From Clostridia bacterium (GTDB lineage Bacteria > Bacillota > Clostridia > Christensenellales > CAG-138), in NCBI GenBank assembly GCA_017539215.1, contig JAFYHI010000002.1, positions 1 to 32,372 on the forward strand: DNA of 32,372 bases. The letters are read 5' to 3'. Shown piece by piece: positions 25,029 to 31,524 of this stretch. The position numbers were made by a program, and so were the translations under genes. The first letter of the stretch is position 1. Every line of letters starts with the position of its first letter. Under the pieces are notes generated by a model. The model made no database searches. It worked only from the letters and a program-made list of their open reading frames with translations, and was not told the DNA's origin.

Positions 25029-25334
25029 ATGGTTGACGTGCTGTACGGCATTGCAGCCGCGCTTTGCGGCATGGGGGTATCGTACCTTAACTACCGCCTC
25101 ACCGAAAGGCTGCTTGACGGCGGGAACGGCTCGCTGATGAAGCTGTCGCTGAGGGCCGTGATAACCGCACTGTTTATCGGGCTCCTGTTCCTTGCGGGCA
25201 GTCAGCTGCATCTGCCCATGGAGGCGCTGCTGATTGGCGGCGCGGCGGGGCTGACGCTGGGGCTCGTTTTCTTTACGGCAAAGCTCATGCGCGCCGAACG
25301 TGAAAAAGGCCGGGAGGATCGCTCAGATGGGTGA
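25029..25334 (+). CDS. AtpI-like small membrane protein of the ATP synthase operon
   Basis: A 101-residue protein with AAGGAGGTG upstream and three hydrophobic helices (about residues 4-21, 42-60 and 65-87), ending in a charged tail. It is in the place where atpI, an assembly-related or Mg2+-linked small protein, usually stands. The sequence itself is too divergent to prove homology, so the call rests largely on size, topology and position. Its stop overlaps the atpB start by 8 nt. Confidence 0.7.
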   Translation: MVDVLYGIAAALCGMGVSYLNYRLTERLLDGGNGSLMKLSLRAVITALFIGLLFLAGSQLHLPMEALLIGGAAGLTLGLVFFTAKLMRAEREKGREDRSDG

Positions 25335-25989
25335 GATATCGGAACCGATCGTTAAAATATTCGGGATACTCGACATAACCCCCGAGGTCATCACCATGTT
25401 TGCGATGATCGCCGTGACGGCGCTCGTCTGCTTTCTGGCGACGCGAAACCTGAGGGAAAAGCCGGGGTTCCTCCAGAATTTGCTTGAATACGCGGTGGAG
25501 TACCTTGACGGGTTTTTCACCGATCTTTTGGGCAAAAAAAACGCGAGAAAATACCTGTTCTTTTTGGGTTCGCTGTTCGTGTTCATACTTATGGCGAACT
25601 ACTCGGGGCTTATACCCGGGGTAGACGCTTCGCCCTTTTTCAAGGCGCCGACTTCCTCGCTTTCCGTCACGCTGGGGCTTGGCGCGGTGACGTTCGTGTT
25701 TTTGCAGGTCGCCGGGTTCTCGGCGGGGCCCAAACGCTATATCAAGCATTTTTTGACCCCTATAGTGCCGCTGCTGCTGATGGATGAGCTTATAAAGCCC
25801 GCATCGCTTGCGTTAAGGCTCTTCGGCAATATATTCGGCGAGGAGACCGTGATCGAAAACCTTTACGAAATACTGCCCGTGGGGCCGCCCGTCATAATGA
25901 TGGGGCTGTCGCTTTTGTTCTGTGCGATACAGGCAATGGTCTACACGATGCTGACCGCCAACTATTTGAACGAATTCTTAGAAGACTGA
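25327..25989 (+). CDS. atpB: F-type ATP synthase subunit a
   Basis: A 220-residue membrane subunit forming the proton half-channels of Fo. The conserved helix LALRLFGNIFGEE carries the essential Arg facing the c-ring, and the last helix has FCAIQAMVYTMLTANYL. The start at 25327 is chosen because GGGAGG lies 10 nt upstream and the family length fits. Confidence 0.95.
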   Translation: MGEISEPIVKIFGILDITPEVITMFAMIAVTALVCFLATRNLREKPGFLQNLLEYAVEYLDGFFTDLLGKKNARKYLFFLGSLFVFILMANYSGLIPGVDASPFFKAPTSSLSVTLGLGAVTFVFLQVAGFSAGPKRYIKHFLTPIVPLLLMDELIKPASLALRLFGNIFGEETVIENLYEILPVGPPVIMMGLSLLFCAIQAMVYTMLTANYLNEFLED

Positions 25990-26004: not shown

Positions 26005-26238
26005 ATGACCGAAAACGCATTTATCGCTATTGCCGCCGCGCTTGCGATAGCCTTTTCCACCGTGTTCCCCGCTATGGGACAGGGCAAGGCCGCAAAGACC
26101 GCGCTTGAGAGCATAGCCCGTCAGCCGGAGGCCGCAAAGGACATTCGCAGCACTCTGCTTTTGGCGCTTGCGCTTATGGAGGCGCTGACCATTTACGGTC
26201 TGCTCATTGCTTTTATGCTCGTGGGCAAGATCAAATAA
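26005..26238 (+). CDS. atpE: F-type ATP synthase subunit c
   Basis: A 77-residue two-helix hairpin forming the rotor ring. The polar loop ARQPEA is conserved. The ion-carrying Glu is in LMEALTIYG, and helix 1 has PAMGQG. The motif EALTIY after the Glu is like chloroplast and cyanobacterial proton-type rings rather than the ES/TxxxY of sodium-type rings, so proton coupling is more likely, although the helix-1 Gln is kept. It begins 15 nt after atpB with AAAGGAG upstream. Confidence 0.95.
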
Positions 26239-26252
26239 GCCGGAGGCTTGTG

Positions 26253-26675
26253 ATGCAGCTTCAACCCTCAGTCATAATATGGACCGTTATTTGCTTCCTG
26301 CTGTTCATGCTTGTGGTTGACAGGCTTTTGTTCCGTCCGCTCCTGAAGCATATGGACGGGCGCAGGGAGCGAATTGCGCGCGCCGGCGAGAAAAGGGCCG
26401 CTCTGGAGCGTGAGCTTGAGGACGAGCGGCTGACGCGAAAGCTTGAGGCGGAGGCCGCAAGGGCCCGCGCCGAGGCCGAGGCAAGGGCGGAGCTTGAACG
26501 CGCAAAGGCCGAATGCGAGGCGGAGCTTAACGCATACGCCGAAGAGCTTGCGCTTTACGAAAAGGACATGACGGCGCAGGCCGCAGCTGCCGGCGCGCAC
26601 GACCGCGAGCTGATAATAGGCGCGCTTGACGGCATGGCGGCGGAATACGCCGACAAGCTGATCGTTTCCAAATGA
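26253..26675 (+). CDS. atpF: F-type ATP synthase subunit b (separate copy)
   Basis: A 140-residue peripheral-stalk subunit: one N-terminal membrane helix (about residues 7-26), then a long charged Ala/Glu/Arg coiled coil (ERELEDERLTRKLEAEAARA and onward). It is somewhat short for b (usually about 155-170). The ATG at 26253 fits the CGGAGG site better than the GTG at 26250. It is followed after 1 nt by the fusion gene, which brings its own b-like anchor; the pair could form a b/b' heterodimer. Confidence 0.9.
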   Translation: MQLQPSVIIWTVICFLLFMLVVDRLLFRPLLKHMDGRRERIARAGEKRAALERELEDERLTRKLEAEAARARAEAEARAELERAKAECEAELNAYAEELALYEKDMTAQAAAAGAHDRELIIGALDGMAAEYADKLIVSK

Positions 26676-26676
26676 T

Positions 26677-28929
26677 ATGGAGTATTTGTACGCTGCGATC
26701 AACTTTCTGCTGCTGCTTGGGTTAGCCTGGCTGCTTGTCGGAAAGTCGTTCAAAACAAAAATAAAAGAGCGGAAGGCCCGCATAAGCGCGGAGCTTGACG
26801 AGGCGGATGCGTTGGAGCGCGCGGTTGACGCGCGCGATCTGGGCGCGCTTGGTATAGAGGCTGCCGCAGAGGATGCGCCGCTTGAGCCCACGCCTGCGGG
26901 CAAAAGCGAGGCGGAGCTTTTGCGCGAAAAGACCGGGCTTGAAAAGGCGCGTCTTGCCGCCGAAGCCGAAGCGAAGCGATCCGGCGACAGGCGCGAGGGG
27001 CTTTTGGCGCTGCGCACAAAGGCCGTTAAAAAGCTTTGCCAAAAGATCCGGACCAAGTTCTCCGAGCCCGAGTACGCCGAGGCCATGCGCAAAAAGGAAC
27101 CGCAGCTTGCTTTGAGGATACTGGAGAATATAAAGCTGACTCCCGGCGATATGTGCTACCTTATGCACCACGACGTGCTGTACGTTACGCTGACGAGCGC
27201 GTTCCCTTTGGACGAGGAGCTTGTAGAGAGGATCGGTTCCGCAACGGAGGCCCTGCTTGACAAGGTCAACGGACGCCAGTCCCTGTGGGTGCGCGAGGAC
27301 CCGACGCTAATAGGCGGGCTGAGGCTGAGGATAGGCGATACGGTGTACGACTGCACCGTTGAAAACCGCCTGTACCATTTGGAGCGCGACCTTGTTCGCC
27401 GCCCGATGCCGAAGGAGCTGACCGTCGAGGCAGTTATAGCCGACATGGAACGCGGCATAGGCGAGGCCGAGGACAGGGTGGATATTTACCAGCTTGGGCG
27501 CGTGCTGTCGGTGTCGGACGGCATATGCCGCCTTGACGGTCTTGCCGACATAATGTACGGCGAGGTGATAGAGTTTGAGTGCGGCGAGCGCGGCATGATA
27601 CTGGACATTGAGCCGGAGCGCATCGGCTGCGTGGTGTTCGGCAGCTACGAGAACATAGAGACCATGAGCCGCGTACGCAGGATAGGCCGCATTGCAAGCG
27701 TGCCCGTCGGCGACGAGCTTTTGGGCAGGGTCGTCGACCCGCTGGGGAGGCCGCTTGACGGCGGGGACAGGATACATGGAGCCCAGCGCCGGCCGATCGA
27801 GTTCGGTGCGCCCGGGATACCCGACAGGAAGTCCGTATCCGTGCCGCTGTCGACGGGGCTTAAGGCCGTGGACGCGCTGGTGCCGATAGGGCGCGGTCAG
27901 CGCGAGCTTATTATAGGCGACCGTCAGACGGGAAAGTCCGCATTGGCGATAGACACCATAATAAACCAAAAGGGCAAGGGCGTTGTCTGCATTTACGTTG
28001 CGATAGGCCAGAAGGAGTCTACCGTGGCGGGCATACGCGCAAAGCTCGAGCAGAGCGGCGCCATGGAGTACACGACGATAGTTTCGGCGACCGCTTCAAG
28101 CTCCGCCTCTATGCAGTACATAGCCCCGTTCGCGGGGGCCGCCATGAGCGAATACTATATGTATTCGGGGCGCGACGCGCTTATCGTGTACGACGACCTT
28201 TCAAAGCACGCCGTAGCCTACCGCGAGCTGTCGCTGCTTCTGCACAGGCCGTCAGGCAGGGAGGCATACCCCGGGGACGTTTTCTATCTGCATTCAAGGC
28301 TGCTTGAACGCTCCGCAAGGCTCTCACCCGAGGCCGGAGGCGGCTCCGTTACGGCTCTGCCCATAATCGAAACGCAGGCGGGCGACATCTCCGCATACAT
28401 CCCCACGAACGTGATCTCCATAACCGACGGGCAGATATTCCTTGAGACCGACCTGTTCAACGAGGGCCAGCGCCCCGCCGTCAACGTGGGGCTTTCGGTA
28501 TCGAGGGTGGGCTCCGCCGCGCAGACGAAGCTCTTAAAGCAGGTTTCCGGAAAGCTTAGGATGGAGCTTACCCAGTACAGAGAGCTTAACACGTTCTCGC
28601 AGTTCGGCTCGGATATAGACGAAAGCACGAAGCGCGTGCTTGCCCGCGGCGAGCGCATGATGACCGCGCTGCGGCAGAGGAGGTATTCGCCCATTGAGGA
28701 CGCGAAGCAGGCGCTGCTTATATACGCCGTGTCCGAGGGCTTTGCGGACGGGGTCGAGCCGGAGCGCATGGAGGAGTTTGAAAACGCCCTTTACGCATGG
28801 TTCGACGGGAAGGAAGGCGGCCTTATGCGTGAGCTTAAAACCGGCGCCGCCATGAACAGAAAGACCGAGGCCGCGGTAAGAAAGGCCCTCGGGCGTTTTG
28901 CGGAGGCTTTCGATGCCGACGCTGCGTGA
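26677..28929 (+). CDS. Fused b-like anchor / delta C-terminal domain / alpha subunit of ATP synthase
   Basis: One uninterrupted 750-residue frame. Residues 4-21 are a b-type membrane helix followed by a basic turn and a charged helical stretch to about 140. Residues 165-239 match the C-terminal domain of delta (VTLTSAFPLDEELVERI, then GGLRLRIGDTVYDCTVENRL). From about 244 to 750 is a complete alpha subunit: VLSVSDGICRLDGL at its start, P-loop GDRQTGKS (414-421), SVSRVGSAAQ with the arginine finger (R610). The usual six-helix N-terminal domain of delta is not recognisable. No ribosome site precedes M244, so separate alpha is not obviously made. There is no other delta or alpha gene here. Mycobacteria have a b-delta fusion; adding alpha is unusual. 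Gamma overlaps its end by 17 nt. Confidence 0.93.
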   Translation: MEYLYAAINFLLLLGLAWLLVGKSFKTKIKERKARISAELDEADALERAVDARDLGALGIEAAAEDAPLEPTPAGKSEAELLREKTGLEKARLAAEAEAKRSGDRREGLLALRTKAVKKLCQKIRTKFSEPEYAEAMRKKEPQLALRILENIKLTPGDMCYLMHHDVLYVTLTSAFPLDEELVERIGSATEALLDKVNGRQSLWVREDPTLIGGLRLRIGDTVYDCTVENRLYHLERDLVRRPMPKELTVEAVIADMERGIGEAEDRVDIYQLGRVLSVSDGICRLDGLADIMYGEVIEFECGERGMILDIEPERIGCVVFGSYENIETMSRVRRIGRIASVPVGDELLGRVVDPLGRPLDGGDRIHGAQRRPIEFGAPGIPDRKSVSVPLSTGLKAVDALVPIGRGQRELIIGDRQTGKSALAIDTIINQKGKGVVCIYVAIGQKESTVAGIRAKLEQSGAMEYTTIVSATASSSASMQYIAPFAGAAMSEYYMYSGRDALIVYDDLSKHAVAYRELSLLLHRPSGREAYPGDVFYLHSRLLERSARLSPEAGGGSVTALPIIETQAGDISAYIPTNVISITDGQIFLETDLFNEGQRPAVNVGLSVSRVGSAAQTKLLKQVSGKLRMELTQYRELNTFSQFGSDIDESTKRVLARGERMMTALRQRRYSPIEDAKQALLIYAVSEGFADGVEPERMEEFENALYAWFDGKEGGLMRELKTGAAMNRKTEAAVRKALGRFAEAFDADAA

Positions 28930-29794
28930 GCTGAAAAACCGCCTGCAGGGCGTTAAAACGACCGGAAAGCTCGCCGGCGCGATGAGGACCGTTTCGACAG
29001 CCAAGTATTCACGCGCGGCGGCGCTGAAAAGGCAGAGCGCGCCGTACTCCGAAGCGGCAAGCCTTCTCTATGAACGCGCGGCGGAAGCCCTCGGAAAGCC
29101 CAAAAATAAGAAAAAGGACGGCAGGCCGAAGCGCAGGCGCGATGACGGCTTTGCCGATGAAGCTGCCCTCCCCCGCCCCGTCATCGTGCTTGTTTCCGGC
29201 AACAAGGGGCTTTCCGGGGGGTGCGACCACGAGCTTTTCGCGTTTTTCGCAAAGGCTTTGGAGGGATACGACGGGCCGCTCGTTATAACCTGCGGCAGGA
29301 AGGCCGCAGAGTTTGCAAGGGAGAAGCGCCTTGAGGTGATGCGCGATATGCCGGCGCAGGACGTGCCTGCATACAGCGAGGCTGCGGAGCTTGCCGATAT
29401 GCTGACCGCGCTTTACGAGGACGGGTCCGCATCGTCGATAGACGTATGCTTTATGCACGCGCATAATATGTTAAAGCGCGAGCCCGTGATGCAAAGGTTC
29501 CTGCCTAAGCAGGCCCATGCGTCCGGCCCCGAAAATGCCGCGGTGAAGCCCATTTTCGTGCCCGACGCCAAGACCGTGAAAAAGAGGCTTATGCCCGAAT
29601 TGAGGACGGCGGAGCTTTATTCGTGGCTTTTGGACTCGGCCTGTGCCGTGCAGTCGGCAACGCTCGTTGCAATGCGCTCGGCATATGACAACGCCTCCGC
29701 TCAGGCGGAGCTTTTGGAAACAGCCATCAACCGCAGACGACAGCAGGAGGTAACAAGCTCGGTGCTTGAAACAAGCTCCGGCATGAGCGTCTGA
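28913..29794 (+). CDS. atpG: F-type ATP synthase subunit gamma
   Basis: A 293-residue rotor shaft. The N-terminal helix LRELKNRLQGVKTTGKLAGA and the C-terminal helix ending INRRRQQEVTSSVLETSSG are typical, as is VIVLVSGNKGLSGGCDHELF. Between the N-terminal helix and the Rossmann-like domain is a basic stretch of about a dozen extra residues (KPKNKKKDGRPKRRRDD) compared with E. coli gamma. CGGAGG precedes the ATG at 28913, inside the end of the fusion gene, indicating coupled translation. Confidence 0.94.
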   Translation: MPTLRELKNRLQGVKTTGKLAGAMRTVSTAKYSRAAALKRQSAPYSEAASLLYERAAEALGKPKNKKKDGRPKRRRDDGFADEAALPRPVIVLVSGNKGLSGGCDHELFAFFAKALEGYDGPLVITCGRKAAEFAREKRLEVMRDMPAQDVPAYSEAAELADMLTALYEDGSASSIDVCFMHAHNMLKREPVMQRFLPKQAHASGPENAAVKPIFVPDAKTVKKRLMPELRTAELYSWLLDSACAVQSATLVAMRSAYDNASAQAELLETAINRRRQQEVTSSVLETSSGMSV

Positions 29795-29812: not shown

Positions 29813-31218
<1,406 letters not shown>

Positions 31219-31219
<1 letters not shown>

Positions 31220-31524
31220 TGGAGGGCGCGATAAAGCTTGTTGTAGTGACGCCAGAGGGCGAGGCCGGACGCGCCTTTTGCGACAGCGTGACCTTTTGCG
31301 CCATGGACAACGAAAAGGGCGAGGGCGGCGGCTCGGTAGGCATATTAAAGGGTCATTTGCCGCTTATAGCGGCGCTTGAGGACGGCAGCCGGGTGACCGC
31401 AAAGCGCTCAGGCAGCGAGGTCTTTTCGGCAGAGGTTTGGGGCGCGTTTGCATACGCCGCCGATGATACCGTGACTGTTATAACGAGGAGCCGGAATACG
31501 GAGGCTCCCGCAGAGAAAGGCTGA
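31219..31524 (+). CDS. atpC: F-type ATP synthase subunit epsilon, short form without C-terminal helices
   Basis: A 101-residue protein matching only the N-terminal beta-sandwich of epsilon (LVVVTPEGEAGRAFCDSVTF, then VGILKGHLPLIAALEDG). Family members usually have about 130-140 residues with a C-terminal helical hairpin that can inhibit ATP hydrolysis; this one ends in a short polar tail after the sandwich. Rotor coupling should remain; epsilon-type inhibition should not. AAAGGGG precedes the ATG. Confidence 0.88.

Follow-up and report, generated by a model that had tools for sequence, protein, structure and literature searches.

The window analyzed here, a stretch of 32,372 nucleotides from contig JAFYHI010000002.1 of a Clostridia bacterium, carries an F-type ATP synthase operon on its forward strand, in which the genes are ordered a, c, b, fusion, gamma, beta, and epsilon. 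The fusion gene (26677..28929) starts with ATG and encodes a chain of 750 residues without an internal stop. Within this chain a b-type membrane anchor, the C-terminal domain of delta, and an entire alpha subunit follow one another, an arrangement called the triple fusion below. An earlier note on this DNA had described just such a single frame, and the open reading frame, Pfam and TIGR00962 uphold the description. The ATG lies one base after the stop of the b gene and has no recognizable ribosome site (predicted anti-SD energy +0.6); its position suggests that translation of the fusion is coupled to that of b.

The b-type chain (b') occupies residues 1-158 (26677..27150) and was assigned from ATP-synt_B and profile comparison. 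It opens with a membrane helix (residues 1-24, 26677..26748) recognized by hydropathy and alignment, which has a mean pairwise identity of 0.51 in 38 aligned sequences (the set is described below) and a best 19-residue hydropathy of 2.15 in the window chain and of 1.6-2.8 across the 38. ATP-synt_B (PF00430) matched residues 5-49 of the window chain at an E value of 0.011, which is below the curated Pfam cut-off of 28 (16.2 bits for the whole chain and 19.5 bits for residues 1-158). In the family as a whole, 33 of 38 members matched this model at E≤0.01, the best at 1.5e-10, and the profile of the b' part matched that of the b subunits of relatives having a two-part fusion (delta C-terminal domain plus alpha) or a free delta C-terminal domain (E 3.6e-10, 51 columns). 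A stretch of variable length at about residues 45-100 (43 to 60 residues in the 38-chain alignment) lies within b'. No match to a V-type E/G stalk as the origin of the anchor was found in Pfam or PDB-profile searches.

The delta (OSCP) C-terminal domain follows at residues ~161-239. The PF00213 match (27166..27393, residues 164-239) covers profile positions 99-172 and scores 45.4 bits against a cut-off of 22.3, whereas positions 1-98, the delta N-terminal domain, had no Pfam match in the fusion chain. A hidden N-terminal domain in residues 100-160 was also considered and dropped, as neither Pfam nor a PDB profile matched one there. The tether and the N-terminal helix of alpha (residues 239-274, 27391..27498) were delimited from the alignment of 38 chains. 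Complete alpha (27406..28929) was recognized by TIGR00962 (NCBIfam atpA) at residues 254-745, with 721.9 bits against a cut-off of 484.45, which identifies it as F-type, and Pfam placed its N, nucleotide-binding and C domains at fusion residues 274-740. Both GDRQTGKS, which we take to be the P-loop, and SVSRVG, which presumably holds the arginine finger, are present.

The other operon genes code for single subunits. The a subunit (25327..25989; Pfam and sequence) has LRLFGN, and L[RH]L[FYW]GN was found in 37 of the 38 loci, the exception being L059. In the c subunit (26005..26238, Pfam) the ion-binding Glu is followed by Ala (ALMEALTIY), and all 38 loci have [AS]L[MI]EAL[TS]IY. The ligand rule for this subunit relates Glu-Ala to protons over sodium ions, so the residue pair suggests H+ rather than Na+ as the coupling ion. 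The separate b subunit (26253..26675; 140 residues from ATG), assigned by sequence and profile match, has its counterpart in every locus, with one b gene per locus in 38 of 38. These b chains have 138-168 residues, mostly 138-143, and their genes end at most about 100 bases upstream of the fusion. A C-terminal motif, RE[VIL]xx[DE][NHD], is present in 7 of 11 b chains of the two-part and free-C-domain relatives; it is absent from the window b and present in only 1 of the 38 b chains of the triple clade. Downstream, the gamma gene (28913..29794, Pfam) overlaps the end of the fusion gene with its start, and is followed by beta (29813..31219, Pfam) and by epsilon (31219..31524, Pfam), which has 101 residues and the beta-sandwich domain only. 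Epsilon was located in 37 of the 38 loci, with 78-147 residues counted from the first start codon, and in 27 of these it has 91-104. A short epsilon was considered as a mark of multi-stalk enzymes and dropped because the ordinary operon L175 also has a short one (88 residues). Two minor features are recorded here. The window gamma has a Lys/Arg-rich insert (KPKNKKKDGRPKRRRDDG) near residue 65 that is absent from the compared part of the L174 gamma. Ahead of the a gene lies a small membrane-protein-like open reading frame (25029-25334) with no Pfam match over the cut-off, at what we take to be the usual place of AtpI.

The genome to which the window belongs is a MAG of 86 contigs, 70% complete, and the earlier note's reading that separate atpH and atpA genes are lacking agrees with what it holds. 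Its single OSCP match is the fusion itself. ATP-synt_ab gave five matches: the alpha and beta of this operon (contig C9), two on C27, and a weaker one on C81. By the strength of the matches listed, none of the five is a second F-type alpha, and in a protein search only the fusion was close, the other matches listed having 26-28% identity. Two b-type matches, b and the fusion, were seen, both under the Pfam cut-off, and a single copy of the a gene was found. The two adjoining ATP-synt_ab genes at C27:13098-15381 probably encode the A and B subunits of an A/V-type ATPase, in which case two rotary ATPases may occur together in this genome.

When related genomes were searched for the same domain order, 38 further loci carrying the triple fusion were found. 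The contig scan confirmed 97 relatives, from which 80 loci were kept; the fusion is present in 38 of these (L037-L073 and L087), complete in 37 and cut by the contig end in L069. The other 42 kept loci consist of two two-part fusions (L074 and L076) and ordinary-size alpha frames, two of which are contig-cut. The 38 aligned chains comprise that of the window and those of the 37 complete loci, L069 and the duplicates L014 and L018 having been dropped; loci are not quite equal to genomes, as L072 and L073 come from one MAG. The 37 complete relatives are 53-73% identical to the window chain, and the ATG that opens each of the 38 aligned chains lies no more than five alignment columns from that of the window chain. 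In the window's genus, OSCP was matched in 11 of 13 genomes, where the fusion was the sole match listed, and the other two had no match; no second close alpha was among the matches listed for those 11. SAR86 matches reaching residue 69 (L079) were set aside, as they proved to be an ordinary separate delta plus a 514-residue alpha. That an assembly error or a frameshift joined separate genes might be suspected of a fragmented MAG, and those fusion-bearing loci that have titles are likewise MAGs or uncultured isolates. However, because the same fusion recurs in 38 further loci across many MAG records, genomes of the same genus included, we reject an artefact as having practically no chance of being the explanation.

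The closest parallel is an engineered enzyme. Ueno et al. (2025) removed the delta N-terminal domain of Bacillus PS3 FoF1 and fused the C-terminal domain to alpha, and the sections of the article drawn on here describe complexes having as many as three peripheral stalks, an a subunit accompanying each, together with an H+/ATP of 5.8 versus 3.0 and a threshold force of about half (PMC12229609). In those sections the delta N-terminal domain is named as what limits the stalks to one, and every ATP synthase so far is said to have a single a, the H+/ATP varying by c number (PMC12229609). Particles with three stalks were seldom seen by cryo-EM, a scarcity that the authors ascribed to detachment; the stalks seen always retained a subunits, and a form in which stalks stay bound is asked for (PMC12229609). 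The natural fusion shares two features of that design, as its delta N-terminal domain is missing and its C-terminal domain is fused to alpha. Our family profile matches PDB chain 9jc1_I without interruption across the delta C-terminal domain and alpha; the molecule name of this chain is delta-alpha fusion, and we take it to be the chain of Ueno et al. The joint, counted by eye, is one residue longer in the window family. The 101-residue epsilon of the window also resembles the truncated epsilon of the PS3 construct. By the parts of the article used here, the two differ in that the PS3 construct is designed, has a separate b and loses its stalks by detachment, whereas the present fusion is natural and has a b-type anchor in the same chain. 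The earlier note had missed the absence of the delta N-terminal domain, the condition for three stalks in the engineered enzyme.

Natural two-part fusions have also been reported, for Acidaminococcus fermentans and two UniProt entries, and were predicted to be multi-stalk (PMC12229609). As far as that description goes, the A. fermentans protein shares the C-domain-alpha joint and the missing delta N-terminal domain with the triple fusion and has no b anchor in the chain. In our data the alpha of L076, titled as an Acidaminococcus MAG, falls outside the triple clade.

In the PDB, the first 240 residues of the fusion best matched chain d of 7jg5 (E 4.9e-13 over two stretches), the mycobacterial b-delta protein, in which a b-type anchor is joined to delta as it is here. 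Mycobacterial b-delta has a delta N-terminal domain, is unfused to alpha, and is present in one copy per enzyme. In contrast, no delta N-terminal domain lies between the b part and the C-terminal domain of the window chain. Another partial likeness is to the N-ATPase b subunit (TIGR03321), whose C-terminal part matches the delta-domain part of the fusion and whose operon is without delta. The scores (28.4 bits for the window and 47 for the b' of L074) are far under the curated cut-off of 224.7, and N-ATPase operons begin with beta-epsilon (PMC4154653), unlike the a-c-b-fusion-gamma-beta-epsilon order found here. The mycobacterial b-delta fusion and the N-ATPase order are treated in the passages of PMC4154653 and PMC5709465 used for this comparison, in which no triple fusion is described.

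Taken with the engineered enzyme, the gene points to an F-type synthase in which every alpha brings its own peripheral-stalk chain, giving three membrane-anchored chains per F1. We consider this arrangement probable, although by no means secure. In ordinary enzymes the delta N-terminal domain sits on the threefold axis and permits one stalk only; its loss would leave three equal docking sites on F1, and a delta C-terminal domain carried by each alpha with a b-type anchor in front of it would place three anchored chains around F1, provided that the chain is uncut. Each of these would make up a b/b' stalk together with the short b encoded separately. Since 37 of the 38 b chains lack the usual motif at the C terminus, we infer such a b/b' pair in which b' alone would dock to the delta domain. 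Each stalk would probably hold an a subunit against the c-ring, and two or three a subunits would raise H+/ATP in proportion and let ATP be made at low proton-motive force. For an uncut chain and no separately made alpha, the earlier note had proposed three anchored stalks per F1 as a new architecture. The first part stands as a stoichiometry read from the gene, to which the engineered enzyme and our failure to find a conserved way of making free alpha lend good if indirect support. The claim of newness was too strong, as multi-stalk enzymes are already in print as the engineered form and as the A. fermentans prediction.

Three stalks would not form if the chain were cut or if alpha were also made from an internal start, as one fused and two free alphas would give an ordinary one-stalk synthase. 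We think this unlikely. In its favor, the true start in the window, taken as coupled to the b gene, has no recognizable ribosome site, whereas predicted sites precede the in-frame starts GTG223 (-6.7), ATG257 (-5.6, near the median of -6.2 for true starts) and GTG268 (-6.0), and ATG occurs at 257 or 258 in 18 of 38 chains. The earlier note overlooked these sites. It was right in finding no ribosome site before M244, where the predicted energy is +0.7, and only 3 of 38 chains have ATG at that column. However, among the 848 in-frame start codons of the alpha core, 142 have a site of -5.6 or better (in the window, 4 of 27), and the sites at 223, 257, and 268 are therefore unremarkable. No column in 160-292 has Met in at least half of the 38 chains, GTG and TTG columns having been judged by eye only, and a start at 257 would cost much of the N-terminal helix of alpha. 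Synonymous sites near the candidate starts (150-169 and 242-272) showed no extra constraint in the 38-chain comparison: conservation relative to expectation was 1.10 (150-159), 0.92 (160-169), 0.86 (242-262) and 1.03 (263-272), where sliding windows had a mean of 1.016 and s.d. of 0.096. Raised values were found inside alpha, at residues 329-338 (1.42; 27661-27690), 606-615 (1.38; 28492-28521) and 280-289 (1.31; 27514-27543). The last peak sits just before the invariant Met 293 and could be read as favoring an internal start, but a start at 293 would cost part of the alpha barrel. An internal start may possibly operate in the window species, though none is indicated.

The joint itself also speaks against cleavage. 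The tether (239-274) has 36 residues in 35 of 38 chains and 35 in the other three, and the segment 110-239 has 130 residues in 37 of 38; two-part fusions vary more at this joint, which has about 31-83 residues by a rough measure that includes some misread rows. The tether sequence (240-270) has a pairwise identity of 0.23 in the 38 chains. A length that stays fixed while the sequence drifts would be expected of a load-bearing joint more than of a cleavage site. Even if all alphas are fused, however, only one stalk of the three might engage an a subunit, leaving two anchors idle and the H+/ATP ordinary. This seems to us somewhat less likely again than a supply of free alpha. It agrees with the single a gene and single b gene of each operon, and the copy number of a is not fixed by sequence; weighing on the other side, in the available account of the engineered enzyme the observed stalks always kept a, and the H+/ATP was about doubled (PMC12229609). 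A point against several a subunits in the arrangement that we favor, three anchored chains per F1, is the one a gene of the genome, so that extra copies of a would depend on the level of translation.

The cellular setting offers a plausible use for a low gear. Rnf subunits were found in 12 of 13 genomes of the genus and an antiporter-type subunit (PF00361) was absent from all 13, and a small ion-motive force is therefore plausible in these bacteria. The fullest form of our reading would be a natural synthase that has three a subunits and three b/b' stalks, the latter tethered covalently, and that moves about three times the usual protons per c-ring turn and makes ATP in low gear at very low proton-motive force, a state that would have been reached stepwise by loss of the delta N-terminal domain, fusion of the C-terminal domain to alpha, and fusion of the anchor. 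We offer this version tentatively and put it at slightly short of an even chance. Were every alpha anchored, the gene itself would set how many stalks there are, and the gear ratio would be changed by multiplying them. The fused b' anchor would then solve the detachment problem named in the sections of Ueno et al. used here (PMC12229609). Running as a hydrolase, such an enzyme would pump many protons for each ATP.

The three-stalk idea is itself not wholly new, as two-part fusions, and the likelihood that they carry several stalks, are already described in the parts of PMC12229609 cited here. In the open-licence PMC literature, however, we found no paper in which a b-type anchor is linked covalently to every alpha, and none on the b-delta-alpha triple fusion, on its single clade, or on the series of states within one order.

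In a sample of the window's order, 104 of 200 genomes matched the delta profile. These were classed by match span and open-frame length, the sequence being checked for loci in hand: 14 have a full delta, 31 a C-terminal domain in a frame of 71-249 residues, and 58 a C-terminal domain in a frame of 559-796 residues, the remaining one being the window's own genome with a 755-codon frame. The two-part fusion is thus common in the order. In the family, classed in the same way, 40 matches were listed for 103 genomes: 10 full delta (with G231 placed here), 9 C-terminal domain alone, 9 C-terminal domain plus alpha, and 12 triple fusions. By this classification the relatives appear to display the successive steps, namely full delta, delta C-terminal domain alone, C-terminal domain fused to alpha, and triple fusion. 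Because several of these states are found within one order, and even within one family, each step of the path is open to test.

A tree built from 106 alphas grouped the 38 triple fusions in a single clade (SH-aLRT 99). The tree, which is without L087, L069 (too short), near-duplicates, and most SAR86 loci, came from a quick search and has several long branches, and its count of two-part origins is rough. With that reading, the two-part fusion and the free C-terminal domain each require at least five changes on starred branches, and both have thus been gained, or have reverted, on several occasions. L074 (uncultured Clostridiales, hRUG855; support 93, not starred) is sister to the triple clade. 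Its operon has b, a separate b' of 242 residues with a degenerate delta C-terminal domain, and a 578-residue delta-CTD-alpha, so that a b'-like chain and a two-part fusion are two genes there and two delta C-terminal domains are present. The L074 b' aligns with the first 240 residues of the window family over almost the whole length (E 1.2e-11, probability 97.4), and in 38 of 38 triple fusions the delta C-terminal domain is nearer to the alpha-linked copy of L074 than to its b' copy. The simplest path would be that b' was joined onto an existing two-part fusion and that the degenerate domain was then lost. An origin from a full b-delta of the mycobacterial type was our first guess and was replaced by the L074 route on the strength of the b' match and the closeness of the C-terminal domains.

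Among the relatives, G231, of another genus in the same family, has both an ordinary full-delta operon (L175) and a triple-fusion operon (L174). This hints at transfer of an operon and gives a natural setting for comparing both enzymes within one cell. At L131 and L187 (G167:C24:7130-7516), two delta C-terminal domain matches lie in one frame of 136 residues before an ordinary-size alpha, a possible tandem duplication of the domain. At L132, L135, L136, L176, L178, L188, and others, delta seemingly consists of the C-terminal domain only, beside an alpha of ordinary size; such C-domain-only frames of 71-116 residues were seen in 28 of the 104 matching genomes of the order sample.
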